IMG/VR virus record: IMGVR_UViG_3300037193_001287 | Coordinates: 1-51,287 of that record | Length of the DNA stretch: 51,287 nucleotides | Strand: one strand, 5' to 3' | Source: a virus | Part shown: in pieces, positions 5,826-37,833 of the stretch | How the letters are laid out: every line of letters starts with the position of its first letter | How positions within the stretch are numbered: position 1 is the stretch's first letter | The notes under the pieces: generated by a model | Databases searched by the model: none | Told to the model about the DNA's origin: nothing | What the model saw: only the letters and a program-made list of their open reading frames with translations | Translations under genes and position numbers: made by a program

Positions 5826-6567
5826 CGGCGGGGCCTCCTCGGTAGGTCAACGACCTCCATACCCTGCTCGGGCTCGCGTGGCTCGTGGCTTGGGTGGTGG
5901 GGACGAACCTGTCGGTGGGGGCGATGAGGCCTTCGTTGGCGGCCCATCGGAACAGGGGGCCGGAGGCGCGGGGTTCGGCGGGCTTGGGCACGAGGGTCCA
6001 GAGGTCGTCGCCGGTGAGGTACTCGCGGTCGGCGGCGAGGCGGCGGAGGGCGGCCTTGGCGGCGTCTTTCCAGTCGTCGGGGGCGTGTTCCTCGGCGCGG
6101 GCCATGCCGTCGTCGCGGCGGAGCTCGCCGGCGCGCCGGTTGCGGCGGGCCTCCTCCATGCGGCGGTCGAGCTCGGCGGCGTAGGCGGCGGTGTCGAGGG
6201 TGACGGTGGCGGTGGGGCCGAGCTTGACGACGTTGTCGGGGCCGAGGGCGCCGGCGAGGTCGTCGGGGACGACGACGTGGAGGGTGGCGGCGGCGTCGAG
6301 GTCGACGCCGGAGCGAATGAGGGCCTCGACGTCGAGCTCGTCGAGGCTGTCGGGGCCGTAGGCGGTGAGGCGGGCGGCGGCGGTGCGGGCTCGGCCGTGC
6401 CAGTCCTGGCCGGTGCCGGGCACGAGGCCGACGGGTGAAAGGGGGTGTTGGGCGTGCTCGCGCCGGAGGCGGTCGGCGGCGGCCTGGGCCTCCGGCGTGA
6501 GCTCGCGGGCCGGGCCGTCGGCCCAACCGCCGCCGCGACGGCCGTACAGAATGTCGCGGGCGGTCAT
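5818..6567 (-). CDS. Hypothetical protein with C-terminal winged-helix-like domain (249 aa)
   Basis: The C-terminal 90 residues (about 155-245) follow a pattern seen in many phage and plasmid proteins: W-x-DAAKAALRRLA, TGDDLWTLVPKP, EPRASGPLFRWAANEGLIAPTDR and a final SRVWRSL. This is a compact helical, probably winged-helix, module of unknown role. The N-terminal part is charged and helical (TPEAQAAADRLRREHA) with a beta-rich middle (TLHVVVPDDL, TATVTLDTAAY). Upstream neighbour of small terminase. Confidence 0.78.
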   Translation of the reverse strand: MTARDILYGRRGGGWADGPARELTPEAQAAADRLRREHAQHPLSPVGLVPGTGQDWHGRARTAAARLTAYGPDSLDELDVEALIRSGVDLDAAATLHVVVPDDLAGALGPDNVVKLGPTATVTLDTAAYAAELDRRMEEARRNRRAGELRRDDGMARAEEHAPDDWKDAAKAALRRLAADREYLTGDDLWTLVPKPAEPRASGPLFRWAANEGLIAPTDRFVPTTQATSHASPSRVWRSLTYRGGPADG

Positions 6568-6570
6568 GGG

Positions 6571-7437
6571 TCAGTCGCCGCCGAGGGTGGCGACGGCGGT
6601 GTCGGGGGCGGGGCCGGCGATGAGGAGGGCGTCGGCGAGCGCGGTGGCGACCTCGGAGCGGACGTCGAGGTAGGCGGCGCGCTTCACCTCATGCGGCCGG
6701 TTGAGCTTGTAGCCCATGGTCACCTCGCCGCCGCCGCGGGGGAGGCGGTAGCGGAACCGGGCGAGGAGCTCGTAGGCGGGGAGGCCGACGAAGGGTTTGA
6801 CGGCGAGCTCGATGGTGTCGGGGATGACGACGGTGCCGTCGGCGCCGGCGGAGGCCTCGACCTCCTCCTCGTAGGCAAGCTGGACGCGGCCATCCGCGAG
6901 GCGGCGGCCGGAACGGACGCGGGTGTTGACGTTCGCGTGGAGGGTCTGCGCGAGGTCGAGCATGGCGGCCGGCGCCGGCGAGCGGAGCTCGGAGAGGCCG
7001 TTCTCGACGTGCTCGGCGAAAGCCTCTTGGCCCATGAGGCGGCCGTCCTGGCCGGTCCAGTGGTTCCATTCGGGGGTGGGGCGGAGGGCGAGCTCGACGC
7101 GGTAGTCGCGCCAACCGGGTTCGGGGCCGGTGTCGTCGTTGAGGACGGCGACGAGGGCGAGGCGGTCCTCATCCGCGTAGACGACGGGGTCGGCGACGCG
7201 GCGGGCTTCGACGGCGGCGACGAAGCTGTCGGCGTCGTAGACGCTGATCGTGCCGTGCGAGCGGGTGGGCGCCGGGAGGCGGAACGAGGCGTCGATGCGT
7301 GAGCTTGTCCAACCGGGCGGGAGGAGCATCCTGCCGGTGTCGCCGGCGTCGACGGGGAGGAACTCGGGGCCGGCGGCGAGCTCGGCGACGGCGTCGGCCT
7401 CGGTGCGGCTGCCGACGGTCTCGGTGGTGAAGGTCAT
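6571..7437 (-). CDS. DUF2303-family phage protein (288 aa)
   Basis: The central segment with HWTGQDGRLMGQEAFAEHVENG (about 130-152) and the following beta-rich half match DUF2303/YfdQ proteins found in prophages and actinophages; their biochemical role is not known. I chose the ATG at 7437 because GAGGAG sits 8 nt upstream; the GTG at 7446 overlaps the previous stop and would add three residues. It forms a pair with the upstream 155-residue gene, an arrangement often seen for this family. Confidence 0.85.
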   Translation of the reverse strand: MTFTTETVGSRTEADAVAELAAGPEFLPVDAGDTGRMLLPPGWTSSRIDASFRLPAPTRSHGTISVYDADSFVAAVEARRVADPVVYADEDRLALVAVLNDDTGPEPGWRDYRVELALRPTPEWNHWTGQDGRLMGQEAFAEHVENGLSELRSPAPAAMLDLAQTLHANVNTRVRSGRRLADGRVQLAYEEEVEASAGADGTVVIPDTIELAVKPFVGLPAYELLARFRYRLPRGGGEVTMGYKLNRPHEVKRAAYLDVRSEVATALADALLIAGPAPDTAVATLGGD

Positions 7438-7442
7438 GGCGG

Positions 7443-7910
7443 TCACTCCTCGATTCGGCGGGGTTCGGTGGTCGGCTCGACCGGGACGCGGCGGACGTCG
7501 CCGCTGATCGTGTCGACGACGCGGACGTCGCCGTCGGCGTCGAGGAACGGGACGCCGGGGATGCGGGCGGCGTAGGGGTCGTCGAGGTGAAGGGAGCCGG
7601 CGTCGCCGACGTAGCGGAACGTGAGCTCGGGCGCCGGCTTGGGGGCCTTGACGGCGACCTCGCCGGCGATGACGACGCTACGGCGGCCGCTGCCGGCGGG
7701 TTCGACGGCGATGGTGAGGGTGAGCTTGCCGGGCTTCTCTAGGTGGGTGACGGCCTCGACGAGCTCGTAGAGGGCGGCGGTGGCCTCGTCGTTGACGGTG
7801 CCGCGGGCCAGGGCGGCGACCTCCTCGGCGAACGTGAGGCGCTTGGGGCGCTCGGGCGCCGGCGGCGGTGCGACGGTCTCGGGCGAGTGCTGCTCGGGGT
7901 CGAGCTCCAT
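7443..7910 (-). CDS. Hypothetical protein (155 aa), partner of the DUF2303 gene
   Basis: ATG at 7910 has CAGGAG 5-6 nt upstream. N terminus is Pro-rich, then a helical segment RLTFAEEVAALARGTVNDEATAALYELVEAV and a beta-rich C-terminal half (KLTLTIAVEP, SVVIAGEVAVKAPKP, ELTFRYV, FLDADGDVRVVDT). No named family recognised. The leader bases before the ATG (CCAGGAGACCCC) recur upstream of the internal start at 45414. Confidence 0.8.
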   Translation of the reverse strand: MELDPEQHSPETVAPPPAPERPKRLTFAEEVAALARGTVNDEATAALYELVEAVTHLEKPGKLTLTIAVEPAGSGRRSVVIAGEVAVKAPKPAPELTFRYVGDAGSLHLDDPYAARIPGVPFLDADGDVRVVDTISGDVRRVPVEPTTEPRRIEE

Positions 7911-7931
7911 GGGGTCTCCTGGGATGAGGTT

Positions 7932-8279
7932 CTACGGGACGAGGTCGAGCGTGGCGGGCGGGTAGGCGGCCTGTAGGGCCTCGACGGTGGCGGCGACGTC
8001 GAGGAGCCGGCGGGCCTCGCGGCGGATGAGGGCCGGGTCGAACGTGGTGATGCTGCCGACGATGGGGCCGACGATGCGGACGCCGGGCGGCCGGTAGGGG
8101 TGGATGACCTTGCCGCGCTTGACGAGCTCGGCGGCCGGCGGCGTGTAGTAGGCGCCGAACAGGCGCTCGGCCGGCGCCGGGTCAGGGTGGCGGGGGTCGG
8201 TGCCGCGATCCCAGGAGGGGGCCTCGGGGAGCGGGCGGCCTCGTCGAGCTCGTGCGCGGCGGATGGTGCGGGACGTCAT
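7932..8279 (-). CDS. Hypothetical protein (115 aa)
   Basis: ATG at 8279 overlaps the upstream stop (ATGA). Very basic N terminus (RTIRRARARRGRPL), then a region with FGAYYTPPAAELVKRGKVIHPYRPPG and GPIVGSITTF, ending in a helix. Nucleic-acid binding is plausible from the basic N terminus but unsupported otherwise. Confidence 0.72.
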   Translation of the reverse strand: MTSRTIRRARARRGRPLPEAPSWDRGTDPRHPDPAPAERLFGAYYTPPAAELVKRGKVIHPYRPPGVRIVGPIVGSITTFDPALIRREARRLLDVAATVEALQAAYPPATLDLVP

Positions 8280-8464
8280 CGTTGGGCCTCGACGACGAGG
8301 TCGATGACGTCGGCGCACGCGAGGACGGTGGACTCGACGACGAGGCCTCCTCGGACGTCGTCGCGCCAGATGCGGCCGCCATGCCGGCGGAGGACGGCCT
8401 CGGCGCGGCCGACGGCGACGGCGGGGGCCGTGCGGAGGTCGGCCTCGGAGACGAAGGCGCGCAC
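8276..8464 (-). CDS. Hypothetical small protein (62 aa)
   Basis: GTG at 8464 overlaps the TAG of the Xre-type regulator by one base (TAGTG). Sequence is a helix (VAVGRAEAVLRRHGG) followed by strands (RIWRDDVRGGLVVESTVLACADVIDLVVEA). No family recognised. Coupled to the regulator gene. Confidence 0.68.
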   Translation of the reverse strand: MRAFVSEADLRTAPAVAVGRAEAVLRRHGGRIWRDDVRGGLVVESTVLACADVIDLVVEAQR

Positions 8465-8715
8465 TACTGAGCGCGGGCGACGGGTCGGCCGGCGACGGCG
8501 GCGACGGGGCCGTTGGCCGGGACGAGCATGAGGTCGAGCTCGTAGATGCGCGAGAGCTCCTCGATGCGGCCGATGGTCGGGTTGGCCTGGCCGAGCTCGA
8601 CCTCGCGGAGCGTGTTCGCGGCGAGGCCGTGCCGGTCGGCGAGGGCCTTGCGGGAGAGGCCGTTCGCTTCGCGGTGCTGCGTGAGGATGCGGCCGAGGTC
8701 GGCGGCGAGGGTCAT
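8464..8715 (-). CDS. Xre/Cro-CI type helix-turn-helix regulator (83 aa)
   Basis: Residues 5-65 form an HTH_3 domain: ILTQHREANGLSRKALADRHG (helices 1-2), AANTLREVELGQANPT (recognition helix and loop), then two closing helices. The protein is only a DNA-binding domain with a short tail, typical for Cro-like proteins. It is the clearest candidate for binding the TAGGT-N5-ACCTA sites, but nothing in the sequence proves it. ATG at 8715 overlaps the upstream stop (ATGA). Confidence 0.88.
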   Translation of the reverse strand: MTLAADLGRILTQHREANGLSRKALADRHGLAANTLREVELGQANPTIGRIEELSRIYELDLMLVPANGPVAAVAGRPVARAQ

Positions 8716-9242
8716 GGGGTCGGGGCCTCCGGTGTGAGGTCGGCGAGCTCGACCGGGATGCCGACGAGGTCGTCGGGGTCGTCCTCGGGGGTGGCGAGGT
8801 CATCGAAGTCGAGGGCGGCGTCGCCGGGCTCGGGCAGGAGGCCGAGCTCGGCGAGGACGTCTCGGGACTCGGCCAGGGCGTCGCCGAGGTTGCGTTCGGC
8901 GTCGTCGTCGTCGGCCGGCGGTGGCGGTACAACGGCGAGCCGGCGCTCCTCGGGGGCCTCGGCGTCGAGGTCGGCGATGGGGCTGACGAGGCCGGCGCCG
9001 ATGCTGGCGGCCTCGATGATGTTGGCGGCCTCGTCGAGCCGGGCGGCGTCGACGAGCATGTTGGTGACCATGACGGCGCCGGAGCGAATGTCGCGGCGCT
9101 CGCCGGCCGCGCGCTCCTCGTGGAGCTCGGCGGCGGCGCGGGTGGCGGCGCGCTGCCGGCGGCGACTGTCGGCGCGGAGGGCCTCGACGACGAGGTCGCG
9201 GGCCTCGGGGTCGAGGAGGGCGATGAGCCGGCCGTCAGGCAT
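8712..9242 (-). CDS. Hypothetical acidic protein (176 aa)
   Basis: ATG at 9242, overlapping the upstream gene by 8 bases. N-terminal helices rich in Arg/Glu (EARDLVVEALRADSRRRQRAATRAAAELHEERA) and a long acidic C-terminal half with many Asp/Glu/Pro. No domain recognised. Lies between two predicted DNA-binding proteins, so it may act with them; that is inference. Confidence 0.78.
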   Translation of the reverse strand: MPDGRLIALLDPEARDLVVEALRADSRRRQRAATRAAAELHEERAAGERRDIRSGAVMVTNMLVDAARLDEAANIIEAASIGAGLVSPIADLDAEAPEERRLAVVPPPPADDDDAERNLGDALAESRDVLAELGLLPEPGDAALDFDDLATPEDDPDDLVGIPVELADLTPEAPTP

Positions 9243-9516
9243 CGGCGTCGAGGCGGGCGCGGCCGGCGTCGTTGATGCGGAACCCGTAGCTGGTGCGGGT
9301 GACCTGCTTCGCGTTGTTGAGCCGGCCGAGGGCGGAGGCCGAATCGGAGCGGCCGACGCGGCCGGTGCCGTAGACGAGCTCGCCGATGCGGCGCGGGGCG
9401 AGGGAACAGTCGGCGTCGGCGAGGACGCGGAGGACGGCGAGCTCGACGGCCTCGGCGTCGCGGACGGGCGCGTAGCTGTTCGTCGAGGGCCGGGCGAGGG
9501 TGGGGGTGTCGGGCAT
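9235..9516 (-). CDS. Winged-helix-like protein (93 aa)
   Basis: Residues 22-90 read as a winged helix: AVELAVLRVLADADCSLAPRRIGELVYG, SDSASALGRLNNAKQVTRTSYGFRINDAGRARL. Likely DNA-binding regulator. ATG at 9516 has AGGAG 5 nt upstream and a predicted promoter plus a TAGGT-N5-ACCTA site in the 62-base gap before it. It is the first gene of the 9.5-5.2 kb unit. Confidence 0.75.
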   Translation of the reverse strand: MPDTPTLARPSTNSYAPVRDAEAVELAVLRVLADADCSLAPRRIGELVYGTGRVGRSDSASALGRLNNAKQVTRTSYGFRINDAGRARLDADA

Positions 9517-9545
9517 CGGGGCTCCTGGGATGGGCTTAGGTCTAC

Positions 9546-9574
9546 AACCTACTCATAGGTGGACGGCCTAGCAA
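9546..9574 (-). promoter_or_regulatory. Promoter with operator-like palindrome upstream of the 9.5-5.2 kb unit
   Basis: Minus strand TTGCTA (9569-9574), 17-nt spacer, TAGGTT (9546-9551). The perfect interrupted palindrome TAGGT-CTACA-ACCTA covers 9537-9551, so here it overlaps the -10 rather than the -35. The transcript would have a leader of about 25-30 nt with an AGGAG ribosome binding site, unlike P1-P5. Confidence 0.55.
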
Positions 9575-9578
9575 GGTC

Positions 9579-10229
9579 TCATTCCATGACGAGCGGCCAA
9601 CAGGTCGGCCAACCGGAGCGGGAGGCCGGGTCGACACGGCTGGCCCATTCCTGCGCGGCGGCCTTCTGCTCGGCGTAGGGCATCCCTCGATAGGCGCCGA
9701 CCTTGCGGGCGGTGTCGGGCGAGAACTGGAACGCTGTGAGGTGATAGCCGGCCGGGTCGGGGTCGATGTTGTGCGGCGGGCGGCCGTCGGTGTCGCCGGT
9801 CGATTCGCAGGCGGCGAGGGCGTCGAAGTCGCCGGCCGGCGCCGAGCTTGTGACGGAGGCGGCCTCGACGCCGGCCGACTCGTTGGCGCCGCTCGCGTCC
9901 TGGCGGAGCTCGGTGAGCTCGTGGCGGGCGGCCTCGACGGCGCCGCGTTCGACCTCGATGAGCCGGGCGTCGATGGCGGCCAGGTTGCGGGCGAGCTCGT
10001 CGAGACGGGCCGCGGTCGCGTTCGCGTTGAGGGCGGCCTCGTCGCGCATCGCTCGGAGCATCGAGAGGGCGGCGTCGGTGCCGGTCTCGTCGAGCTCGGC
10101 GACCTCGGCGTCGGCGTGCCGGTCGACGTAGTAGGCGGCGGCGGGGCCGACGATGAGGGCGATGGCGGCGACGACGATGGCGACGCTGCCGGCCTGCTGC
10201 TTCCAACGGGGGCGGGTGGGGGTGGTCAT
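9579..10229 (-). CDS. Membrane-anchored Rpf-type lytic transglycosylase (216 aa)
   Basis: Residues 12-34 are one transmembrane segment; 40-110 are a charged coiled coil; 134-211 match the resuscitation-promoting-factor/transglycosylase fold: FDALAACEST with catalytic Glu142, AFQFSPDTARKVG, and SGWPTCW, with Cys141 and Cys210 placed for the family disulfide. Rpf enzymes cleave peptidoglycan and are characteristic of Actinobacteria. The anchor and spacer would hold the enzyme outside the membrane facing the wall. It is far from the endolysin and close to the replication genes, so a role in wall remodelling during infection is possible. ATGA overlap with the initiator gene. Confidence 0.85.
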   Translation of the reverse strand: MTTPTRPRWKQQAGSVAIVVAAIALIVGPAAAYYVDRHADAEVAELDETGTDAALSMLRAMRDEAALNANATAARLDELARNLAAIDARLIEVERGAVEAARHELTELRQDASGANESAGVEAASVTSSAPAGDFDALAACESTGDTDGRPPHNIDPDPAGYHLTAFQFSPDTARKVGAYRGMPYAEQKAAAQEWASRVDPASRSGWPTCWPLVME

Positions 10230-10975
10230 TGGTCTCCTCGGAGTCGGGCGCGGGTCTCGGCGGCCAGTCGGCGGCCGGCGTTGGCGTCGAGCGGCGGTTC
10301 TGCGGCGAGGGCGGCGGCGCGCTCGGCGGCCTCCTCCATCTTTCGACGCGCGGCGGCCTGGGCCTGGGATGCCGGGTCGGGAGGCGCGGGGCCTCGCCGG
10401 TTGGTGCCGCAGGCTCGGCATGACGGGTGTTGTCCTTGGTGCTCATCGGTTCCCCCGCTTGCGGGGGGTAGGGGGGTAGTTCTCTCTCCTCTCTCGTTAG
10501 TGCCGCGCTGGCGCGGGTGGTGCGGCCGCGCTGGCGCGGGTGGTTGAGCCTTGGGACCGTCCGCGCTGGCGCGGGTGGTTGAGGGTTGGTCGTCCCCAGG
10601 GTTGTCGACAGGTTGGGGACGAGGGCGGTCGAGGAGCCGGTAGCGGTTGCTTCGGCCGTTGCTGCGCTCGACGACGAGCCAACCGGCGGCCTCTAGGACG
10701 GCGACGGCGGCGCCGAGGGCCTCGTCGGACGGGGCGCGCCGGCGGCCGGTGCTCGGCTCGATGTAGGACAGGCGCGAGCGGAGGAGCTCGTAGCCGGGCC
10801 ATGCGACCTCGCGCGGGCCGAGGTAGCGGTCGAGGGCGCCGTAGAGGCGGACGGCGAACGGGGTGACGCGCTCGTCGTAGAGGAGGGCCTCGGGGACCAT
10901 GGCGAAGGGTGGACGTCGGCGGACGCCGGTGGACGCCGGTGGCGCGTCATTGTCACAGGCGGTAGCTACTGTCAC
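10226..10975 (-). CDS. Replication initiator-like winged-helix protein (249 aa)
   Basis: Residues 25-115 form a winged helix typical of phage and plasmid replication-initiation proteins: MVPEALLYDERVTPFAVRLYGALDRYL, WPGYELLRSRLSYI, LGAAVAVLEAAGWLVVERSNGRSNRYRL. The linker (about 116-180) is Pro-rich and low complexity and is encoded by three DNA direct repeats that look like iterons. A CxxC pair (CRAC) and a charged C-terminal helix follow. GTG start at 10975, with GAGGAG 11 nt upstream. A lambda-O-like arrangement, initiator carrying its own origin, is inferred. Confidence 0.75.
   Translation of the reverse strand: MTVATACDNDAPPASTGVRRRPPFAMVPEALLYDERVTPFAVRLYGALDRYLGPREVAWPGYELLRSRLSYIEPSTGRRRAPSDEALGAAVAVLEAAGWLVVERSNGRSNRYRLLDRPRPQPVDNPGDDQPSTTRASADGPKAQPPAPARPHHPRQRGTNERGERTTPLPPASGGTDEHQGQHPSCRACGTNRRGPAPPDPASQAQAAARRKMEEAAERAAALAAEPPLDANAGRRLAAETRARLRGDQ
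10503..10583. repeat. Three iteron-like direct repeats in the initiator gene (candidate origin)
   Basis: CCGCGCTGGCGCGGGTGGT occurs exactly at 10503-10521, 10526-10544 and 10561-10579; copies 2 and 3 extend by TGAG. Spacing of starts is 23 and 35 bases. Just beyond them, 10592-10620 has a 7-bp inverted repeat (GTCCCCA/TGGGGAC) around TTGTCGACA (10602-10610), one base away from the TTGTCCACA DnaA box of Actinobacteria. The cluster sits inside the initiator-like gene, as in lambdoid origins. Confidence 0.6.
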
Positions 10976-11060
10976 GGTGGTCGGTGCTCCTCGGTTCTAG
11001 GGATGGGGTCGCAGGGGTCGACGTGGAGGGGCCGGTCTACATGGCCGGCCTCTGCCGCGT

Positions 11061-11354
11061 CTAGGGGGTGATGCCGAGCTCGCGGGCGCCGGCGGCGTCG
11101 AGGAGCCATCCGGCCTCGTAGCTGATCCGCGGGTGGGCGTGAACCCATCGGTGGCAGGGCGGGCACAAGTCGAGGAGGTTCTCGACGGTGTCGGGGCCGC
11201 CTTGCGACCTCATGCGGCGATGGTGGGGGCCGTCGGCGGCGTAGGTGGTGCAGACGTCGGCGATGCGGGCCTCGCATCGTCCTCGGGACCGTCGGCGGAC
11301 CTCCTCGGCGGCGAGCGCGAGCTCGGAGCCGAACTCGCCGGCGGAGCGGGTCAC
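11061..11354 (-). CDS. HNH endonuclease (97 aa)
   Basis: Residues 27-72 carry the HNH fold: Cys27 and Cys35, the catalytic HHRR at 44-47, Asn59 in VENLLDLC, the second Cys pair Cys64/Cys67 and the final HRWVH. The two cysteine pairs bind structural zinc and the central His with divalent metal cuts DNA. Small HNH nucleases in phages usually nick near packaging or recombination sites. GTG start at 11354 overlaps the upstream stop (GTGA). An 85-base gap with no gene precedes the initiator gene. Confidence 0.88.
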   Translation of the reverse strand: MTRSAGEFGSELALAAEEVRRRSRGRCEARIADVCTTYAADGPHHRRMRSQGGPDTVENLLDLCPPCHRWVHAHPRISYEAGWLLDAAGARELGITP

Positions 11355-11608
11355 GCTGCTCGCCGGGCGGCCTCGGCCTTGCGGCGCCGGTATTGGCGCC
11401 GGTAGCGGCGCTCGGCCTCGCGGCAGGCGTCACAGTGGCATCCCTTCCGGTAGCGGCTGCGGGTGCCGTGCTGCGGCGCCGGCCGCCATGGCGCGCGGAC
11501 GGCGTTGACGTCGCCATGGCGCCATAGGCGGGTGTAGTGCATCTTGCACAGTCCGGTCGAGCGGGCGGGCGCGTCACACTCGGGGACGCGGCAGGCGGTG
11601 GCGGTCAC
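11351..11608 (-). CDS. Double zinc-motif small protein (85 aa)
   Basis: Two Cys-rich motifs: C6-x4-C11-x9-C21-x2-H24 with the following TRLWRHGDV (typical of small phage zinc proteins next to HNH genes), and C57-x-C59-x2-C62 in RKGCHCDACREAERRY. The second half is very basic and probably binds nucleic acid. GTG start at 11608 overlaps the recT stop (GTGA). Its partnering with HNH suggests both act on the same DNA substrate; inference. Confidence 0.75.
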   Translation of the reverse strand: MTATACRVPECDAPARSTGLCKMHYTRLWRHGDVNAVRAPWRPAPQHGTRSRYRKGCHCDACREAERRYRRQYRRRKAEAARRAA

Positions 11609-12702
11609 AGTGGCGCGTGGTCGGGGCAGTAGTCGCCGTCGGGGGTGACGACGCTGCCGGTCTCGTCGAGGTCGGCGCCGCATTCGGGGAGCGCGCAGTA
11701 GCGAACCTCGACGGCGGGCTCGTCGAGCGGGGCCTCCTGTGCGTCCTCGTGGCCGCTCGTGGCCTCCGGCGGGTGTTCGGCCGTCGCCGGGTCGTCGGCG
11801 CCGTCCTGGGCCTCAGAATCGGCCGATGCGGCGACGTCGACGAACGAGCCGTCGGCGAGCATCGCTTCGGCGAGCCGCTGCCGGAGCTCGGGCTCGCGGC
11901 CGGCCGGCGAGAGGTTGCGGCGGCGGAGCTCGGCGACGACGTCGCGGGGCTTGGCCTTCCAGGGGTCGAGGCGGCCGCCGGTGGTGGCGGTGCGGGCGGC
12001 GGCGCCGGTGCGGGGCCGGTCCTCGTCGCCGGCCTGGGCCATCTCCTCCTCGGTGTAGACGCCGGACGTCTCGGCGGGGAACGCTGCGCGGATGGCCTGA
12101 GCCTCGGCGCACTTGGCGATCATGGTGGAGGGCATCTTCCGCCACATGGCGTCGCCGGTGCCGGTGATCGCGTACTCGGCCCATGACGCGATCCCCCAGG
12201 TGGGGACGTCGTCGCCGTCGACGCGGACGCCGACGAGGGCGGCGGTGGGGGCCTCGGAGCCGAGCCAGGGGAGGGGCATGGCGTTCGGGCCGATCCGCCA
12301 TTCGCCGTCGGGGCCGCAGAAGTAGGGGCCGAGCCGGCCGCGCATCTTGCCGGTACGGCGGGCGATGAGCCGGTAGCCGTCGATCCCGGTTTGGATGACC
12401 ATTTTGCCGCCGCGCTTGGTGGCGTAAATCTGCCGGGCGAACGGGTCGAGGCCGACACGGTTGGCGACCTGGGCGAATAGGGCGAGCTCGCCGTCGGTGA
12501 GGTCGGGGTTGAGGACGGTGCGGATGAGGTCGAGGTGCGACGCGTTGACCATGAGGGCCGGGTGGGCGACCTCGTGGGCGTCGGGGCGGAGCTCGACGAC
12601 GTGGGCCTCGTGCTCGACCTCCTCGACCGGGTGGGCGGTGGTGGAGGGGCCGAGGTCGCCGGTGACGGCGGGCTCCTCGGGGAGCTCGTGCTCGGCGGTC
12701 AT
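11605..12702 (-). CDS. recT: RecT-family annealing protein with SAP and zinc modules (365 aa)
   Basis: Residues 50-225 match the RecT/Bet core: LTDGELALFAQVANRVGLDPFARQIY, KRGGKMVIQTGIDGYRLIARRTG and WRKMPSTMIAKCAEAQAIRAAFP. It anneals complementary single strands during recombination-dependent replication. Residues 250-283 resemble a SAP DNA-binding motif (VVAELRRRNLSPAGREPELRQRLAEAM). The C terminus has a possible zinc site, C336-x4-C341 and C359-x2-H362. The usual partner exonuclease gene is not recognised nearby. ATG at 12702, ATGA overlap with the small membrane gene. Confidence 0.9.
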   Translation of the reverse strand: MTAEHELPEEPAVTGDLGPSTTAHPVEEVEHEAHVVELRPDAHEVAHPALMVNASHLDLIRTVLNPDLTDGELALFAQVANRVGLDPFARQIYATKRGGKMVIQTGIDGYRLIARRTGKMRGRLGPYFCGPDGEWRIGPNAMPLPWLGSEAPTAALVGVRVDGDDVPTWGIASWAEYAITGTGDAMWRKMPSTMIAKCAEAQAIRAAFPAETSGVYTEEEMAQAGDEDRPRTGAAARTATTGGRLDPWKAKPRDVVAELRRRNLSPAGREPELRQRLAEAMLADGSFVDVAASADSEAQDGADDPATAEHPPEATSGHEDAQEAPLDEPAVEVRYCALPECGADLDETGSVVTPDGDYCPDHAPL

Positions 12703-12857
12703 CGGGCGAACAGGCGGTCGAGGGCGGCGGTGACGATGGCGGCCGGGTGGTAGCCGGTGAGCCACGAGAGGAGGCCGAGGCCGACGACGAGCGCGAGCGC
12801 GCCGGCGGCGAGGTTGTTGACGAGGTCGCCGAGCCAGTAGGCGCCGGTGGGTTCCAT
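12699..12857 (-). CDS. Small membrane protein (52 aa)
   Basis: ATG at 12857 with AAAGGA 4-5 nt upstream. Residues 14-36 form one hydrophobic helix (LAAGALALVVGLGLLSWLTG) followed by a short amphipathic tail. First gene of the recT unit; function unknown. It is preceded by a hairpin leader that recurs at 49.3 kb. Confidence 0.75.
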   Translation of the reverse strand: MEPTGAYWLGDLVNNLAAGALALVVGLGLLSWLTGYHPAAIVTAALDRLFAR

Positions 12858-12900
12858 GGGGTGTCCTTTCGGTGGTGCCGGCCGTCCGCCGGCGATGGTG
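12858..12900 (-). promoter_or_regulatory. Hairpin leader and ribosome binding site of the recT unit
   Basis: A 6-bp stem (12877-12882 with 12888-12893, GCCGGC/GCCGGC, 5-nt loop) lies directly before CGAAAGGACACC and the ATG. The same order, hairpin with loop CGTCC then CGAAAGGACACC, precedes the gene at 49272. A weak -10 (TAGTCT) is upstream of the hairpin; its -35 is unclear. Confidence 0.5.
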
Positions 12901-12930
12901 GTGAGACTACGGAGGGGGTACGACGCGCAA

Positions 12931-12959
12931 CCGGCGCCGCCGGGTGAGGGCGGCGCCGG
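12931..12959 (-). terminator. Strong terminator-like hairpin after the P3 gene
   Basis: CCGGCGCCGCC (12931-12941) and GGCGGCGCCGG (12949-12959) form a perfect 11-bp GC stem with a 7-nt loop, 12 bases past the stop at 12971. No T-run follows, as is common in high-GC genomes. It would end the P3 transcript before the recT unit. Confidence 0.7.
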
Positions 12960-12970
12960 TGCGGCGGGGT

Positions 12971-13336
12971 CTAGCGGAGGCCGGTGGGGTTGGCGCCGAA
13001 GCGGGCGCCGGCGGCGAAGGTGCGGAACCGGCGGAGGGCCTTGGCCGAGCCGTAGGCGTCGCCGTAGGCGAACCCGCCGATGCGGTCGGCGGCGGTCCCA
13101 ACGCGGCCGGGATGGGGTAGGAACACGAAGAACGAGCGGCTGTCGATGTGGCGGGGCGTGCCGGGGGCGTAGCCGTTGAGGTCGCCGATGTAGCCGAAGG
13201 TGATGGGGTTATCGGTGAGGGTGAGGCCGAGGTCGGCGTTGAGCTCGGCGACGAGGGCCTCGATGGCGGCGACGTGGCGGTCGAAGTCGGCGAGGGCCTG
13301 CGGGTCGTGGCTGGCGGTGGTCTTGGTGGAGGTCAT
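12971..13336 (-). CDS. Leaderless gene, hypothetical protein (121 aa)
   Basis: ATG at 13336 follows promoter P3 without a leader; protein begins Met-Thr-Ser-Thr. Helical first third (ALADFDRHVAAIEALVAELNADLG), then GYIGDLNGYAPGTPRHIDSRSFFVFLPHPGR, and an Ala/Arg-rich helical end. No domain recognised. It stands alone between promoter P3 and the 12.93-kb terminator, so it is a one-gene transcript. Confidence 0.8.
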   Translation of the reverse strand: MTSTKTTASHDPQALADFDRHVAAIEALVAELNADLGLTLTDNPITFGYIGDLNGYAPGTPRHIDSRSFFVFLPHPGRVGTAADRIGGFAYGDAYGSAKALRRFRTFAAGARFGANPTGLR

Positions 13337-13342
13337 GGGCCT

Positions 13343-13371
13343 ATCGTAAGGCCTCATCCTCCGTAGGTCAA
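13343..13371 (-). promoter_or_regulatory. P3: leaderless promoter
   Basis: Minus strand TTGACC (13366-13371), 17-nt spacer, TACGAT (13343-13348), AGGCCC, ATG. TAGGT-CAAGG-GCCTA covers 13364-13378 and runs into the stop codon of the preceding gene. Confidence 0.75.
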
Positions 13372-13375
13372 GGGC

Positions 13376-13720
13376 CTATCGCTTGGGGTTCATGCGGACG
13401 GCGAGGGCGACGGTGAGGATCGCGCCGACGGCGCCGGCGACGGCGCCGGGGAGGCCGGTGCCGTCGCTGTACGGGTCGAGGTCGACGTCGGCCAGGGCGA
13501 ACAGGTACTCGGCGATGATGATGAGCGCGCCGGGGATGCCGGCCTGGATCGCGGTTCGGCCTCGGGCGCGGTCGGCGGCGGTGTTCTGCTCGGCGACCGA
13601 CGGGTGGATGGTGGCGGTGTCGCCGGTGTCGACCTCGGTGCCGGTCACCGGGGCCGGGAGGGGGCCGTCGTCGACGACCTCGGCCGGGGGGATGGCGGCG
13701 GCGGTGCGGCGGGTGGTCAT
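13376..13720 (-). CDS. Two-helix membrane protein, holin candidate (114 aa)
   Basis: Residues 1-58 are polar and disordered-looking; 60-78 (GIPGALIIIAEYLFALADV) and 90-110 (LPGAVAGAVGAILTVALAV) are hydrophobic segments, ending in a short basic tail. This topology and its place two genes after other membrane proteins downstream of the endolysin fit a holin, but other membrane roles are possible. ATGA overlap with the preceding gene. Last gene of the late unit. Confidence 0.7.
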   Translation of the reverse strand: MTTRRTAAAIPPAEVVDDGPLPAPVTGTEVDTGDTATIHPSVAEQNTAADRARGRTAIQAGIPGALIIIAEYLFALADVDLDPYSDGTGLPGAVAGAVGAILTVALAVRMNPKR

Positions 13721-14295
13721 CGGCGGGGCTCCTCGGGGGTGGTGCGGGCGGTGACGCGCTCGCGGAAGCAGACGGCCGGGTCGGCTTCGCGGGCGCAGAG
13801 GATGGCGTCGCCGACGTCGGCGCGGAGGGTGTCGACGATGGTGGCGATGGCCTCCCCTTGGCGGACGAGGGCGTCCTCGTAGCACTCGTGGACGGCGTCG
13901 TCGTCGTCGAGCTCGGCGCCGGCCTGCGGGCTCGGGGTGGCGCACTCGCGGAGGGCTTGGCCGTTCGCCCGGTTCTGTTCGGCGATGTTGGTGAGCCGGT
14001 TGCCGTAGACGAGAACGGCGACGATGAGGGCGACCATGGCGAGTAGGAGGGCGCCGCCGAGGACGCCGAGGGCGACGGCCTGGATGCGGTTACGGCGGCG
14101 GAGGTCGGCGAGCTCGTTGACGCGTTCGTCGGTGCGGACGAGCGCGTCGGCGAACGTCTCGACGCTGGTGGCGATGCGGCGGAGGTCGATGATGAGCTCG
14201 GCGACGAGGCCGGCGGTGACGAGCGTGTTGGGGTCGACGTCGCCGGAACGGAGGAGGTCGTCGTCGGGGAGGTCAGGCGTTGCCATCGGCGCCAT
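13717..14295 (-). CDS. Single-pass membrane protein with coiled coil (192 aa)
   Basis: Residues 25-68 are helical (VAELIIDLRRIATSVETFADAL), 72-97 form one transmembrane segment (VALGVLGGALLLAMVALIVAVLV), and the rest is a Cys-containing domain (C117, C137, C167, C175). The last part would lie outside if the N terminus is inside, where the four cysteines could pair. Possible spanin-like or holin-regulating role in lysis; inference from position only. ATG at 14286 is an alternative start. Confidence 0.72.
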   Translation of the reverse strand: MAPMATPDLPDDDLLRSGDVDPNTLVTAGLVAELIIDLRRIATSVETFADALVRTDERVNELADLRRRNRIQAVALGVLGGALLLAMVALIVAVLVYGNRLTNIAEQNRANGQALRECATPSPQAGAELDDDDAVHECYEDALVRQGEAIATIVDTLRADVGDAILCAREADPAVCFRERVTARTTPEEPRR

Positions 14296-14476
14296 TCTCG
14301 TCGGCGCCGGGGGGGTTGCGGGGGAGGCCTTCGGCGGCGTCGCCGAGGTCGTCGAGCTCGTCGGCGGTGGCGCGGAGCCGCGCGGCGAGTAGGCGGAGCT
14401 CCACTTTGAGCGCGGCGGTGCTGAGGGGGAGGCCGGCGTCGTGCGGCGGTGGGTGCCGACGCCGGAGGAGGGCCAT
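14273..14476 (-). CDS. Small helical protein (67 aa)
   Basis: ATG at 14476 with GGGAAGG 8 nt upstream. Residues 18-46 form an amphipathic helix (LSTAALKVELRLLAARLRATADELDDLG), then an acidic disordered tail. Overlaps the next gene. Lysis-cassette neighbour; function unknown. Confidence 0.65.
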   Translation of the reverse strand: MALLRRRHPPPHDAGLPLSTAALKVELRLLAARLRATADELDDLGDAAEGLPRNPPGADENGADGNA

Positions 14477-14481
14477 CACGC

Positions 14482-14802
14482 TTACCTTCCCGCGTCTCGG
14501 TCGAGGATGCGAGTGGCGGCCGCGGTGAACTGGACGAGCGCGGGGACGACGTCGGTGCGGAGCGTCGCGTTGAGGTCGCGTTCGCGTTGCTCGGCGGCGA
14601 GAGCTCGGGCCTCGGCCTGGTCGGCCCGTTTCGGGGTTTCGATGCGGCCGAGGAGCCATAGCAGGGTGACGATGCCGAGGACGCCGTAGTTGATGAGGAC
14701 GGCGAGCTCGCCGAGGTCGGAGCCGCCGGCGTGCTCGGTCGAGAGGACGGCGCCGGCGCCGACCGTGTTGACGCCGACGGCGGCGGCGAGCCGGGCGAGC
14801 AC
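14482..14802 (-). CDS. Holin candidate next to the endolysin (106 aa)
   Basis: GTG start at 14802, five bases after the amidase stop. Hydrophobic segments at about 3-22 (LARLAAAVGVNTVGAGAVLS) and 32-56 (LGELAVLINYGVLGIVTLLWLLGRI), followed by a charged cytoplasmic-type helix (PKRADQAEARALAAEQRERDL). Position right after the amidase and this topology fit a holin. No strong ribosome binding site is visible, so the exact start is uncertain. Confidence 0.72.
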   Translation of the reverse strand: MLARLAAAVGVNTVGAGAVLSTEHAGGSDLGELAVLINYGVLGIVTLLWLLGRIETPKRADQAEARALAAEQRERDLNATLRTDVVPALVQFTAAATRILDRDAGR

Positions 14803-14807
14803 GCCGG

Positions 14808-15683
14808 CTAGGCGTCGGGGACGACGAGGTACAGGGTGCAGGTGCCGCCGGGGGCGCCGCCTTCGACGGTGAGGAGCGTGACGCCGTCCTTGTTCTGCTC
14901 GGCGGTCTCGGGGATCGGCCAATAGCCTTCGCGGGCCGGGTTGGAGCCGAGCGGCCGGACGGAGATGAGGTCGCCGAACGGGACGCGGGGGCGGCCGCCG
15001 GCGCCGTCGAGGGGAAGCCACGCGCGTCCCTGGTCGTCGAGGCCGAAGGTGAGGGCGAGACGCATGAGCGGGCTCCTGAGCGTGTTGAGGCGGAGGCCTC
15101 GACGGATGACGGCGGTAGACGTCGTGACGGTCGACGTGGTCGCCGGCTTGTAGCCGGCGAGGTCGAGCATGTGGAGGCCGACGTTGGCGCGAAAGGTGTC
15201 CATGTTGATGCCGACGGGGTCGATCTTGCGGCCGGGGTCGGTCTCCTTGTGGCCGAGCAGGGCCGAACGGTCGGCGGGCCGGCCGAGGCGGAGGAGAACG
15301 GCGGCGACGCTGCGGAGCGACGCGTTGACGATGCGGTCGGAGTAGGGCTCGCCGCGGCCGTCGTTGGCGAGCTCCCAACCGAGCGCATCGTTGCGCCAGG
15401 TGCCGTAGCCGTTGTGGTTGGCCTTGCCGTCGGCGACGAGCGTGATCGAGCCGGAACGCTTGGGGCCGGCCTGGGCGAGCGGGCCGGGGAGGTCGGAGCG
15501 GCCGTCGCGGAGGATGCGGTCGAGGGTGCCGTCGAGCATGGTCGGCGGGGTGGCGGTGTGGTGGACGACGATGCGGCCGGCGGAGCCGGCGGCGAGCTCG
15601 GCGCCGCGGCCTTTCCAACCGGGGAGCTCGTAGACGTCGACGCCGGCCGCTCGGAGAACGTCGGCGAGCCAAGGAACGCGCAC
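14808..15683 (-). CDS. N-acetylmuramoyl-L-alanine amidase endolysin (291 aa)
   Basis: Residues 35-165 are an Amidase_2/PGRP domain: HHTAT at 41-45 supplies the first zinc ligand, the ANHNGYGTWRND loop follows at 89-99, GHKETDPGRKIDP at 144-156 supplies the second His (145) and the catalytic Lys/third ligand region. It cuts the amide bond between muramic acid and L-alanine at lysis. The C-terminal 100 residues are beta-rich (WLPLDGAGGRP, GDLISVRPLG, TCTLYLVVPDA) and may bind the wall. GTG start at 15683 lacks a strong ribosome binding site. Confidence 0.9.
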   Translation of the reverse strand: MRVPWLADVLRAAGVDVYELPGWKGRGAELAAGSAGRIVVHHTATPPTMLDGTLDRILRDGRSDLPGPLAQAGPKRSGSITLVADGKANHNGYGTWRNDALGWELANDGRGEPYSDRIVNASLRSVAAVLLRLGRPADRSALLGHKETDPGRKIDPVGINMDTFRANVGLHMLDLAGYKPATTSTVTTSTAVIRRGLRLNTLRSPLMRLALTFGLDDQGRAWLPLDGAGGRPRVPFGDLISVRPLGSNPAREGYWPIPETAEQNKDGVTLLTVEGGAPGGTCTLYLVVPDA

Positions 15684-15704
15684 GCCGACAGGCTAGGCGC
15701 CTAC

Positions 15705-16310
15705 CTAGTCGGCGGCGGGGATGCCGAGCGCGGCGCGTTCCTGGGGGTCGGCGAGGATGGCGCGGATGCGTTCGTCGACGGCGGCGGCGAACCGGGCGGC
15801 CTCGGCCTCGGCGCGCTGGTTGGCTTCGACGGTGGCGGCCTCCTGCGCGGCGAGGCTGTCACGCTGCGCGATCAGGCTCGCGTGGTGCTGCCATCGGCGG
15901 GTTTCTTCCTCGTAGGCGGCGACGGCCTCGGCGTAGGCGGCCTCGGCGGCCTCCTCGGCGGCGCGGGCGGCGTCGAGCTCCTCGGCTGACGGCGGCGGGA
16001 GGACGGCGTCGACGACGGGGAGCTCGCCGCGGCCTTCGACGGTGAGGATGATGCGGGCTCGTTCGGTGCCGTCGTCGTCGGCGACGGGTTCCCATCGGGC
16101 GACGGTGCCGGTGATGGCGACGGTCCATTCGTCGCCGACGATGCCGTCGAGGTAGGCGCGTTGGCCGGCGGTGAGCTCGCCGGCGAGCGGGCCGGCGGTG
16201 GGCTCGGGTCGTTCGGGCCGGACGGGCGGGTCGCCGAGGGCGGGGAGCTTGGTGTCGAGGGTGACGTCCTCGACGTCGAGCTCGGCCGGGTCGACGGTGC
16301 GGGTGGGCAT
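15705..16310 (-). CDS. Virion-associated or tail-fibre assembly protein (201 aa)
   Basis: The first 110 residues are mixed beta (VTLDTKLPAL, WTVAITGTVARWEPV, RARIILTVEGRGELPV), followed by a long Ala/Glu-rich coiled coil (112-185). Sits between the fibre genes and the endolysin, the usual location for tail-fibre chaperones in myophages. ATG at 16310. Confidence 0.7.
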   Translation of the reverse strand: MPTRTVDPAELDVEDVTLDTKLPALGDPPVRPERPEPTAGPLAGELTAGQRAYLDGIVGDEWTVAITGTVARWEPVADDDGTERARIILTVEGRGELPVVDAVLPPPSAEELDAARAAEEAAEAAYAEAVAAYEEETRRWQHHASLIAQRDSLAAQEAATVEANQRAEAEAARFAAAVDERIRAILADPQERAALGIPAAD

Positions 16311-16327
16311 GGTGGTCAGTCTCCTAT

Positions 16328-17410
16328 CTAGCCGACGATCATGCGGGGACCGCCGGCGACGATGGTGAACGCGGACGACTGTGTCCAACCGCTCGTCGTG
16401 TAGCCGTCGGAGGCGCGGACGCGGAGCTCGTAGGTGCCGGGCGTCTCGGCGCTCGTGTTCCATGAGTGCTGCGAGGCAGCGAGGGATGGCTGCCATGGGG
16501 TCCACGCGCCGCCGTTGTAGCGGTATTCCAACTCGTAGGTGATGGCGTCGCCGTCGGCGTCGGTGGCGTTGCCCCAGTTAATGAGGATGGTGGCGCCTTT
16601 GGCGATGGCTTGGCCGGCGCTCGGGGTGGTGAACGCGCCGGGGGCGCCGGGGGTGGTGTTGGGGGCGCGGATGGCGAGGATGGCGCCGGCGTCGCCGTGG
16701 TAGACGCGGCCGCCGGTGTGGCCGGAGATTCCGGCGGTCTTGGCGGCGGTGGCGGCGGCCGACGTGAGGAGCTCGTAGTAGCTCGCGTAGGTGATCTGCG
16801 ACGAGCCGGTCGCGCCGAAGGTCTCGGCGATGGTCATGCCGGAGGGCGGGGTCTGCCCGGCGGACGCGGCGCTGTTGTTGATGGTCGATTCGGCGAAGAA
16901 CGCGCCGAGGAGGAGCGTGTCGAGGACGCCGGGGGTGACGGCGCCGGCGGCGACGGATCGGCTCGCGATGGTGCTGCCATCGTTGGCGCCGTCGACGGCG
17001 TGGTTGTAGTCGGCGAAGGGGCCGCCATCGACGCCGATGAGGCGGTGCCCGCGGATGGCGAACGTGACGCCGGCGCGGTCCTTGCTGGTCTCGCTGTTCG
17101 TGAATCCCTGGTTGCCGGAGTGGCTGACGAGACCGGCCGAGCCGGCCTCGCGGTACAGGACGTAGAACCGGACGCGGGCGCCGCTGACGCCGTCGAAGGT
17201 GGTTTGGAACAGGGAGGACCAACCGCTCGGGAGGGTGATGCCGTCGTGGCTGCGGGAGACGCCGTCGTCGCTGCCGGCGAAGCAGTAGCCGACGTGGACG
17301 AGGAGGTCGCCGACCTGCGTTTCGGTGGGCTGCGAGAATGACCACGAACCCGACGAGATAGCGACGTTTTCGTGGTTCTGGACGCCGGCGAGGGTGGGGC
17401 GGGTCGGCAT
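16328..17410 (-). CDS. Tail appendage protein with C-terminal fibronectin-III-like domain (360 aa)
   Basis: The N-terminal 235 residues form a beta-rich domain with VGDLLVHVGY, LPSGWSSLF, TFAIRGH and VLDTLLLGAFF segments. The same layout, DLFVLTVHAK, TPAGWTKE, DYVAVAACL, is found at the start of the 996-residue fibre at 40049-43039, so the two probably share an adhesin-like fold. Residues 250-355 resemble a fibronectin III/Ig-like domain (DADGDAITYELEYRYNGGAW, TPGTYELRVRASDGYTTSGWTQSSAF). Likely exposed on the tail and involved in surface binding. Confidence 0.82.
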   Translation of the reverse strand: MPTRPTLAGVQNHENVAISSGSWSFSQPTETQVGDLLVHVGYCFAGSDDGVSRSHDGITLPSGWSSLFQTTFDGVSGARVRFYVLYREAGSAGLVSHSGNQGFTNSETSKDRAGVTFAIRGHRLIGVDGGPFADYNHAVDGANDGSTIASRSVAAGAVTPGVLDTLLLGAFFAESTINNSAASAGQTPPSGMTIAETFGATGSSQITYASYYELLTSAAATAAKTAGISGHTGGRVYHGDAGAILAIRAPNTTPGAPGAFTTPSAGQAIAKGATILINWGNATDADGDAITYELEYRYNGGAWTPWQPSLAASQHSWNTSAETPGTYELRVRASDGYTTSGWTQSSAFTIVAGGPRMIVG

Positions 17411-23378: not shown

Positions 23379-25256
23379 TCATCCTCCTCGGCTGGCGCCG
23401 ACACCGCGTTCGGTGCGGTCGCGCTGGTACGTTTCGATCTGGCGGGGGATGAGCCGGGCGAGCTCGGCTTCGCTCATGCCGCGTGCGTCGATGACGACGG
23501 CGCCGGGCGCCATAGTGAGGCTGTTGTCGAGGCTGGCGGCGGGGAGGCGGTGCTCGGGGCGGGAGGCTTTGCGGCCGCCGAGGAGGCCGGTGACGAGGCT
23601 GGCGCCGCCGCCGATGGCGCCGCCGAGGAGGGCGCCGGCGCCGGTGCCGGCGCCGGGGATGATGCTGCCGATGGTGGCGCCGAGCATGGCGCCCGACGCG
23701 GCGCCGCCGAGGACGTTGCCGACGGAGACGCCGTTCTTGGCGGCGTCGTTGGCGCTCATGTAGAACCCGGCGGCGCCGCCGATCCCGGCCGCGCCCTTCG
23801 CGAGTCCGCCGAGGAGGCCTCCTCCGGCCGCTCCTGGGCCTCCTGCGAGGCCGCCGGCCGCTGCGCCGGCCTGGGCGGCGGAGAGGCCTCGGAGAGCGGC
23901 GACGAACCCCCACAGAGCCTGGGTGGGGCCGGCGAGGGCGCTGAACCCCATGATGGCGCCGAGGAGGCCGATGACGGCCCAACGGGTCGGGCCGAAGCTG
24001 AGGAGCGCGTCGGCGATGTTGACGAGCGGGGTGATGAGCGGGACCAACATGCCGAGCAGGCGGACGAAGTCGGGGAGGAGGCCGACGAGGAGAACGAACC
24101 CGTGGACGAGGTCGGGCATGACGGGCACGAGCTCGGTGACGAGCTCGCCGATGGCGAGGACGAGGTCGTCGACGACGGGGTCGAGGAGGCTGAACGCGGG
24201 AGCGGCGGCGGCCAGGAGGTCGCCGAGGCCGGTGAAGATGGCGCCGAGCAGGGGCGCCGAGCCGCGCAGGAAGTCGCCCAGGAGCGGGACGATGGTGCCG
24301 AGGAGGTCACTGAGGGGCGGGGCGATGGTCTCGACGAAGCTGCCGAACGCGGCCTCCATCGCCGGTAGCTGGCCTTGGAGGACGCCGAGGAGCGGGTCGA
24401 ACGCGTCGACGAGGTTGAGCATGGCCCGCGACTTGACGCCGGACAGGAGACCGCGGAACGTCTGCGTGGCGATCTCCTCGCCGGTGCCTTCGGCGCCGGC
24501 GAACAGGGCGTCGAGGAACGGCTTGCTGGCGAGGCTGGCGCCGCGCTCGTTGGCCCGGCGGACCTCCGCCGCGGTCATGCCGTAGGCCTTCTCCATGGCT
24601 TCGTTGAGGCCGGGGATGCCCGCGTTGATTAGCTGGTTGAGGTCTTGGGCGAAGATCGTGCCGGCCTGCGACATCTGGCCGATGGCGCGGGCGGCCGGGT
24701 CGAGCGCGGCCGGGTTGGTGGCGACGGCGTTGGTGAGGCCGGCGATGGTGTCTTGGAGCTCCTGACCTTTGACGCCGAACGACGCGAGGGTCACCGCCGC
24801 TTGGTTCAGTTGGCCGATATCGAACGGCCGCATGGGGTCGAGCTCGGTGAGGAACTGGAACAGGGCCTTGCCTTCGGCGGCGCTGCCGGTCAACCGGCGG
24901 AGCGACACTTCGGCCATCTGGAAGTCCGCGGCGGTGTTCACGCCGAGGGCGCCGGCGGCGATGGTGATGGCGCCGATGGCGGTAGCCGCGACTCGGGCGG
25001 AGCGGGTGACGTGCTGGTTGAGGGCGGTGCCGAGACCTCGGGCCTCGTTCGCTGCTCCTCGGAGCCGGCTGCCGAGACCTCGGGTGGCGGCGTCGATGCT
25101 GCCGAGACCTCGGCGGCCGCCGGCGACGACGCCGGCGCGGGAGAGCTCGCGGAGGCTGCGCGTGGTGCGCTCGACCTCGCGGCGGACGCCGGCGATGGGA
25201 CGCGATAGGGCGTCCCGTAGCCGGGCGTGGACGACGAGCTCCTCCTCGGTCGCCAC
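23379..25256 (-). CDS. Tape measure protein (625 aa)
   Basis: Starts with a charged coil (LRDALSRPIAGVRREVERTTRSL), then ADFQMAEVSLRRLTGSAAEGKALFQFLTEL...PFDIGQLNQAAVTLASFG, the conserved TMP N-terminal signature. A long hydrophobic region (about 310-480, many L/V/P) and Gly/Ala-rich helices (490-570) complete it. Using the 0.15 nm per residue rule for tape measures, 625 residues would set a tail of roughly 95 nm. GTG at 25256 abuts the TAG of the frameshifted chaperone. Confidence 0.92.
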   Translation of the reverse strand: MATEEELVVHARLRDALSRPIAGVRREVERTTRSLRELSRAGVVAGGRRGLGSIDAATRGLGSRLRGAANEARGLGTALNQHVTRSARVAATAIGAITIAAGALGVNTAADFQMAEVSLRRLTGSAAEGKALFQFLTELDPMRPFDIGQLNQAAVTLASFGVKGQELQDTIAGLTNAVATNPAALDPAARAIGQMSQAGTIFAQDLNQLINAGIPGLNEAMEKAYGMTAAEVRRANERGASLASKPFLDALFAGAEGTGEEIATQTFRGLLSGVKSRAMLNLVDAFDPLLGVLQGQLPAMEAAFGSFVETIAPPLSDLLGTIVPLLGDFLRGSAPLLGAIFTGLGDLLAAAAPAFSLLDPVVDDLVLAIGELVTELVPVMPDLVHGFVLLVGLLPDFVRLLGMLVPLITPLVNIADALLSFGPTRWAVIGLLGAIMGFSALAGPTQALWGFVAALRGLSAAQAGAAAGGLAGGPGAAGGGLLGGLAKGAAGIGGAAGFYMSANDAAKNGVSVGNVLGGAASGAMLGATIGSIIPGAGTGAGALLGGAIGGGASLVTGLLGGRKASRPEHRLPAASLDNSLTMAPGAVVIDARGMSEAELARLIPRQIETYQRDRTERGVGASRGG

Positions 25257-34001: not shown

Positions 34002-34022
34002 CCTCTTTCGCCGAGATTTCGC

Positions 34023-37804: not shown

Positions 37805-37833
37805 CCTACTTTCTGTGGCAGGCGGACCAACCG

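Follow-up and report, generated by a model that had tools for sequence, protein, structure and literature searches.

The window analyzed here, a 51,287-base virus record of 73.6% GC, encodes a 216-amino-acid protein (P0002; minus strand, 10229 to 9579) with a likely, divergent hydrolase domain of the resuscitation-promoting factor (Rpf) type. By analogy with the secreted Kayvirus transglycosylase Tgl, we tentatively read P0002 as a Sec-exported second wall hydrolase that would support the amidase endolysin of the phage, and give this reading a probability of about 0.42. The frame, its neighbors and the residues shared with Rpf enzymes were observed directly, while export, catalytic activity, timing and a role in lysis are what we infer from them.

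The gene at 9579-10229 is real. It starts with an ATG at 10229, preceded by AGGAG 4 nt 5′ of the ATG, and ends with a TGA at 9581-9579, and its GC content at codon positions 1, 2 and 3 (0.73/0.56/0.93) is like that of the window genes for terminase, RecT, endolysin, capsid and portal. An earlier note, made from this DNA alone, had placed a gene in this interval, and the minus-strand frame with its phage-like codon composition bears that out. Other readings of the interval were rejected: two longer frames that overlap the gene and have codon GC values unlike those of phage genes (0.85/0.74/0.63 and 0.85/0.65/0.75), and the plus strand at 9579-10229, whose translation is not this protein.

Three segments can be distinguished in P0002. 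Hydropathy and sequence mark residues 15-32 (10134-10187, minus strand) as a predicted export signal or membrane anchor: a basic start is followed by a strongly hydrophobic stretch (residues 15-27, peak Kyte-Doolittle value 2.29) and then by G-P-A-A-A-Y-Y. We take PAAA-YY to be a plausible signal-peptidase site of the AxA type, where the cut would come after Ala32, and both a signal anchor and a cleaved signal peptide fit this segment. The second segment is a long predicted helix at residues 51-123 (9861-10079, minus strand); in the full-length AlphaFold2 model most of it is confident (pLDDT 84-96 for the residue blocks from 51 to 120) and the domain is poor, and the a/d positions of residues 51-108 make a coiled coil possible. 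The description of P0002 as a membrane-anchored coiled-coil protein in the earlier note thus holds for the hydrophobic segment and the long helix, whereas an anchor is inseparable here from a cleaved signal peptide and the coiled coil is a possibility. The third segment, the Rpf-like (PF06737-like) domain, spans residues 132-210 (9600-9836, minus strand) as delimited by profile matches and alignment, and contains C141, E142 and C210. Its third-position GC is still high (0.89), which suggests that the frame has been maintained.

Library profiles recognized this domain weakly. Pfam PF06737 matched the protein with 16.6 bits (E 0.013; curated cut-off 27) and with 17.3 bits in a genome-wide search, the PHROG 29757 'transglycosylase' family matched at E 2.9e-4 and the NCBIfam RpfC model at E 0.043. 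A direct comparison with gp39 of the Rhodococcus phage NiceHouse, a secreted-looking protein whose own matches to solved structures of Rpf proteins have E values of 2e-24 to 7e-28, gave E 2e-9 for this single pair. A profile was built from 45 other Rpf domains with the window protein left out, and was run against the 571 frames of the window and against shuffled sequences. The Rpf-like frame ranked first among the 571 (E 0.0013), and the real protein scored 15.1 bits, whereas its C-terminal part, shuffled 20,000 times, reached at best 11.2. Judged by these sequence comparisons, the similarity is more than chance.

In a three-way alignment with RpfB and NiceHouse gp39, 19 columns are invariant, and C141, E142 and C210 align with the catalytic glutamate and the disulphide cysteine pair, all at the positions that had been claimed for them. 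The final GWP motif is kept. The same claim had called the catalytic domain intact, which overstates the case given the score below the family cut-off: TAFQF stands where GGLQF is expected, the first tryptophan is a phenylalanine, the tryptophan after the conserved threonine is an alanine, and an extra loop is inserted after the catalytic helix. The label of an Rpf-like wall hydrolase is acceptable to the extent that an Rpf-type domain is likely, as the profile scores against shuffles and the Glu/Cys residues suggest; a fair name for the protein on its sequence is 'Rpf-like, divergent', and it should not be filed in PF06737. Since several hallmark residues are lost, its activity may be weak or absent.

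Structure prediction supports, but does not prove, an Rpf fold. Both predictions used a 46-row alignment consisting of the window protein and 45 of 56 Rpf loci collected from IMG/VR, eleven loci being left out as repeats or near-repeats (L030, L038, L045, L048, L049, L051, L052, L054, L060, L062 and L077). The domain-only model has a mean pLDDT of 63.5. With the full-length model, Foldseek returned nothing at E up to 10; with the domain-only model it gave no significant match and one meaningless one. The six chains that Foldseek ranked highest were compared further with VIA-align, and all three entries listed were Rpf proteins: the domain-only model aligned with RpfC over 73 residues (Z 7.2, rmsd 2.5), with RpfB (Z 6.9) and with the NMR structure of RpfC (Z 4.4), values that all lie below 8 and come from a model built from Rpf sequences.

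Every nameable gene of the window lies on the minus strand. In the direction of transcription, tail genes are followed by the endolysin (14808-15683; Amidase_2 domain, PF01510, E 7.9e-11), which is the only one recognized in the window, and by three small membrane-protein frames of holin or spanin-like type (13376-14815), one of which (13717-14295) weakly matches the Rz-like spanin family PHROG 7686 (E 0.002). Next come a phrog_1556 gene, the RecT single-strand annealing protein (11605-12765; PF03837, E 9.1e-27; PHROG 2780), for which we read an inner ATG at 12702 as a likelier start than that of the listed frame, two HNH-type genes, a replication-initiator-like gene (10226-10975; PHROG 270, E 2.7e-6) and the Rpf-like gene, whose start overlaps the stop of the replication-initiator-like gene as ATGA. 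Unknown genes, a helix-turn-helix (HTH) gene, a DUF2303 gene, a small DNA-binding gene that may, at a guess, be the small terminase, and the large terminase complete the order. The Rpf-like gene therefore lies outside the tail and endolysin genes, about 4.6 kb from the endolysin (14808 minus 10229) and tied to the recT/replication run, in agreement with the earlier note.

Elsewhere in the window, a tail protein at 20593-22629, in which an SLT_3 lysozyme-like domain and a Peptidase_M15_4 domain occupy opposite ends, is likely the virion wall enzyme, possibly a two-enzyme virion lysin. A very long, repetitive frame of 996 aa rich in Ala, Ser, Thr and Gly (40049-43039, minus strand) overlaps an 812-aa frame (39702-42140, minus strand), and a tRNA-Thr was called inside it on the plus strand (42711-42792).

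A predicted leaderless promoter cassette lies at 13343-13371 (minus strand), ahead of the phrog_1556, recT, replication-initiator-like and Rpf-like genes and adjoining the end of the last lysis frame. It consists of TTGACC, 17 bases, TACGAT, AGGCCC and ATGACCTCCACC, and is one of five near-identical minus-strand cassettes (first base of TTGAC at 282, 2077, 13371, 34001 and 37804), each at a gene start, with the consensus TTGAC[CA]-N17-(-10)-AGGCC[CT]-ATGACCTCCACC; a similar cassette occurs at 3398 in the related contig L002. The start context AGGCCY-ATGAYC occurs five times in the window, compared with a mean of 0.015 in 200 base shuffles. Moreover, TAGGT-N5-ACCTA palindromes with at most one mismatch are present eight times where 0.07 are expected (2070-2084, 5843-5857, 9537-9551, 9556-9570, 13364-13378, 33991-34005, 37794-37808 and 44408-44422). 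Four of them sit over a cassette -35 element, including the one at 13364-13378, which overlaps the 13371 cassette, and two form an operator-like pair between the stop of the Rpf-like gene and the next gene (9537-9570). The eight sites resemble operators or stoperators for a single repressor, possibly the HTH protein encoded at 8464-8715.

Together with the gene order, the cassette at 13371 places the Rpf-like gene in a recT/rep run able to start at its own predicted promoter, and the next cassette is found only at 2077, beyond the terminase. A simple scan of the minus strand from 7000 to 17000 found no terminator between the lysis genes and the Rpf-like gene, so that read-through from the lysis genes is possible. 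The assignment to an early-type gene cluster accordingly stands as far as the RecT, HNH-type and replication-initiator-like neighbors and the cassette are concerned; early expression itself is suggested by these sequence features.

No close relative of P0002 was found in any search. In tblastn searches of 50,697 phage records, the whole protein had no match up to E 0.01, and the domain alone, searched up to E 10, weakly matched four records, one of which, NiceHouse gp39, is a true Rpf. One weak match was obtained from plasmids and none from a PDB sequence search with the protein or its domain, and scans of viral contigs with P0002 alone or first confirmed none among 17, 107 and 221 candidate stretches. 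A near-identity search of phage records with the first 25 kb of the window gave nothing. By terminase, the closest two relatives of the phage are L002 (78%; only 4 kb long) and L003 (65%). An Rpf domain was found at E up to 1 in none of the records of 20 terminase relatives, several of which are short fragments. L003, which we read as having a similar order of holin-like genes, recombination-type genes and terminase, has no Rpf-like gene, which suggests that the gene is accessory and dispensable. A genome scan with the window terminase returned only four distant relatives, and no host was indicated.

Rpf domains outside virion and endolysin genes recur in other phages. The NiceHouse domain, used as the query, matched 518 phage records, and the 60 listed comprised 42 tape measure proteins, 16 lysin A or endolysin proteins, NiceHouse gp39 and one unannotated protein; a query with P0004, an Rpf protein of an environmental phage contig, matched 284 records, with further stand-alone Rpf genes among the 60 listed. 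Three matches in human-faecal 'Bacteriophage sp.' records were dropped: MT838503 and MT835584 look bacterial in our reading (L083 has an rpoC-like frame and L084 has genes of sugar-nucleotide type), and MT835479 is unannotated like them. The stand-alone genes viewed belong to Rhodococcus phages (NiceHouse, Weasels2, Shagrat, REQ1), Streptomyces phages (BRock, Alone3) and a Mycobacterium phage (prophi79-1), and some such genes are already annotated as 'transglycosylase' or 'RpfC'. Like P0002, they encode exported-looking Rpf proteins outside the tail genes, and they lie among replication-type genes or beside the terminase, comparable with the recT/rep setting of P0002; their neighbors are thyX, ssDNA-binding and RuvC-like genes, primase, DNA polymerase or terminase. 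In contrast to P0002, their domain is canonical and near the N-terminus, no long helix precedes it, and LysM or M23-like parts, in our reading, often follow it. In REQ1, the secreted-looking gp63 (L091:4905-5981) is encoded between the DNA polymerase and terminase genes and appears to us to contain M23-like and LysM-like parts besides its Rpf domain.

The earlier note had proposed a survey of phages for membrane-anchored Rpf proteins, and such a survey of IMG/VR turned up the layout of P0002 again. Among the 56 putatively viral Rpf loci, the frame has at least 1000 aa in 12 and fewer than 700 aa in 44, and a hydrophobic segment, a coiled coil and an Rpf domain occur together in three (L035, L037 and L038), which represent two distinct proteins because L037 and L038 encode the same one (P0004 in L035; P0005 in L037 and L038). 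As in P0002, the hydrophobic segment is N-terminal and the Rpf domain C-terminal, and the genes lie near the boundary between lysis and other genes; unlike P0002, these proteins have a canonical domain (112.8 bits), with 51% GC and 24% identity overall, and are encoded on the strand opposite to most neighbors, in L035 and L037 about 0.8-1.0 kb from endolysin and membrane-protein genes. A terminase was found in three of the 15 records examined from the 56 loci, L035, L037 and L038 not being among the three; the phage nature of these contigs is based on the IMG/VR listing and from endolysin, spanin-like and tail-type matches. L035 also carries, at 1118-2254 on the minus strand, a KwaB-like protein (PF16162, E 3.7e-12), possibly a phage copy of a component of the Kiwa defence system.

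For P0002 we propose a divergent Rpf-like peptidoglycan glycosidase that would be exported by the host Sec route, through a signal anchor or a cleaved signal, with the long helix keeping the enzyme domain at the wall. Expressed from the recT/rep run, and not only together with the endolysin, it would be a second, glycan-cutting hydrolase already present in the wall before lysis begins. Weak activity of the enzyme might be tolerated until the holins depolarise the membrane, after which it would act alongside the amidase endolysin, which cuts a different bond. Because the only recognized endolysin is an amidase, an Rpf-like glycosidase would be complementary to it.

The model for this reading is Kayvirus Tgl, described as a Sec-secreted transglycosylase with an Rpf-type lysozyme core, whose gene lies a few genes from the endolysin gene and is transcribed by the host polymerase like early genes; Tgl lyses S. 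aureus cells only after membrane depolarisation and has been proposed as a helper of LysK, the main endolysin, an amidase and peptidase (PMC7150955). P0002 resembles it in its predicted export segment, its glycosidase-type domain, the host-type predicted promoter heading its run and the presence of an amidase endolysin. In contrast, Tgl comes from another phage type with a staphylococcal host of another phylum, has a promoter directly before its gene where that predicted for P0002 is at the head of the run, and has an N-terminal wall-binding region in place of the long helix (PMC7150955). Moreover, Tgl activity is laboratory-proven, while P0002 is known from its sequence and is likened to Tgl by description, not by sequence comparison. 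Since Tgl is an early, exported second endolysin, an enzyme of the P0002 type can simply be a lysis enzyme. The proximity of Rpf genes to lysis genes in L035 and L037 speaks for this interpretation, as does the position of the stand-alone Rpf-LysM gene of BRock and Alone3, which precedes the endolysin by about 1 kb and has replication-type genes around it. Against it stand the coupling of the P0002 gene to a replication gene and not to lysis genes, its absence from L003 and hence its dispensability, and the viewed 4-6 kb flanks in Weasels2, NiceHouse, Shagrat and prophi79-1, which contain no annotated endolysin or holin.

A serious rival, although we would call it unlikely, is that the exported enzyme nicks peptidoglycan during infection and, in the manner of host Rpfs, lets hosts in a slow or stationary state go on growing or stay permissive. 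The Rpf-type domain, the placement with recT/rep and, in other phages, stand-alone Rpf genes with thyX, primase or RuvC-like neighbors are consistent with such remodelling. It is also in line with reports that host rpf genes are up during infection by phage WC1 (PMC10986025), that, according to a 2025 meeting report, infection by phages MontyDev and Bora is poorer in Rpf-deficient mycobacteria (PMC12908700), and that a wall-hydrolase motif in the TM4 tape measure protein helps infection of stationary cells (PMC1796659). The first two of these reports keep alive the growth or remodelling role suggested in the earlier note; a waking of dormant hosts and a block to superinfection, which it also raised, are speculative for P0002. 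For P0002, however, the argument is based on sequence, the domain is divergent and the phage has only distant terminase relatives that indicate no host, and the Tgl example indicates that such an enzyme, made early and secreted, can serve lysis (PMC7150955).

It is less probable again that P0002 is a degenerate, non-catalytic Rpf descendant which binds peptidoglycan, for example as a superinfection-exclusion protein or a wall anchor. The loss of GGLQF and of aromatic residues, the score under the family cut-off and the single membrane segment with its long helix would suit such a role, but the catalytic glutamate and the cysteine pair are kept and the third-position GC of 0.89 suggests that the frame of the domain has been maintained. 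A literature search for superinfection exclusion by membrane-anchored peptidoglycan hydrolases found nothing.

Rpf motifs of the same domain family occur in mycobacteriophage tape measure proteins and Lysin A, which are virion or endolysin proteins (PMC1796659, PMC3314691), and tape measure proteins dominated the listed matches to the NiceHouse domain. A virion or injection role for P0002 is nevertheless very improbable, since the protein has only 216 residues, carries an export segment and is encoded among recT/rep genes outside the tail genes, while the tape measure gene (23379-25256) and the SLT_3/M15 tail protein lie elsewhere. Similarly improbable is an inner-membrane lysis protein of spanin type fused to an enzyme domain, to which the single membrane segment, the coiled coil and the weak matches of the L035 protein to Rz-like spanin families (E 0.0075 and 0.0097) might point: spanins serve hosts with an outer membrane, and at E up to 10 P0002 matches no spanin family but only PHROG 29757 and 5310.

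Phage Rpf domains are already in print (PMC1796659, PMC3314691) and stand-alone phage Rpf genes are already present in sequence records. Among the papers found, none treats these genes as a class, which does not establish that no such paper is in print; the words resuscitation, Rpf and transglycosylase are absent from the main text of a 2026 Rhodococcus phage survey covering NiceHouse, Weasels2 and Shagrat (PMC13313380). The new elements are a divergent domain on a long, predicted exported helix, encoded by a gene coupled to a replication gene, and a small survey showing that the layout recurs.

A broader proposal, which we regard as distinctly unlikely but worth stating, is that phages have repeatedly recruited Sec-exported Rpf hydrolases outside their virion and endolysin genes and express them with replication genes, supplying the Rpf activity that is absent in an infected slow or dormant host so that infection proceeds; the long-helix, membrane-held form seen in P0002, L035 and L037 would then be a variant specialised in keeping the activity local. 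Should stand-alone Rpf enzymes act ahead of lysis, phage infection would be linked to host dormancy exit, a question that has long been asked about soil Actinobacteria and mycobacteria. Should they be second endolysins, as we favor for P0002, phages of these hosts would place a glycan-cutting enzyme in the wall early. In both cases, a recurrent and mostly unremarked set of phage genes becomes testable, and cultured Rhodococcus and Streptomyces phages already carry canonical stand-alone versions.
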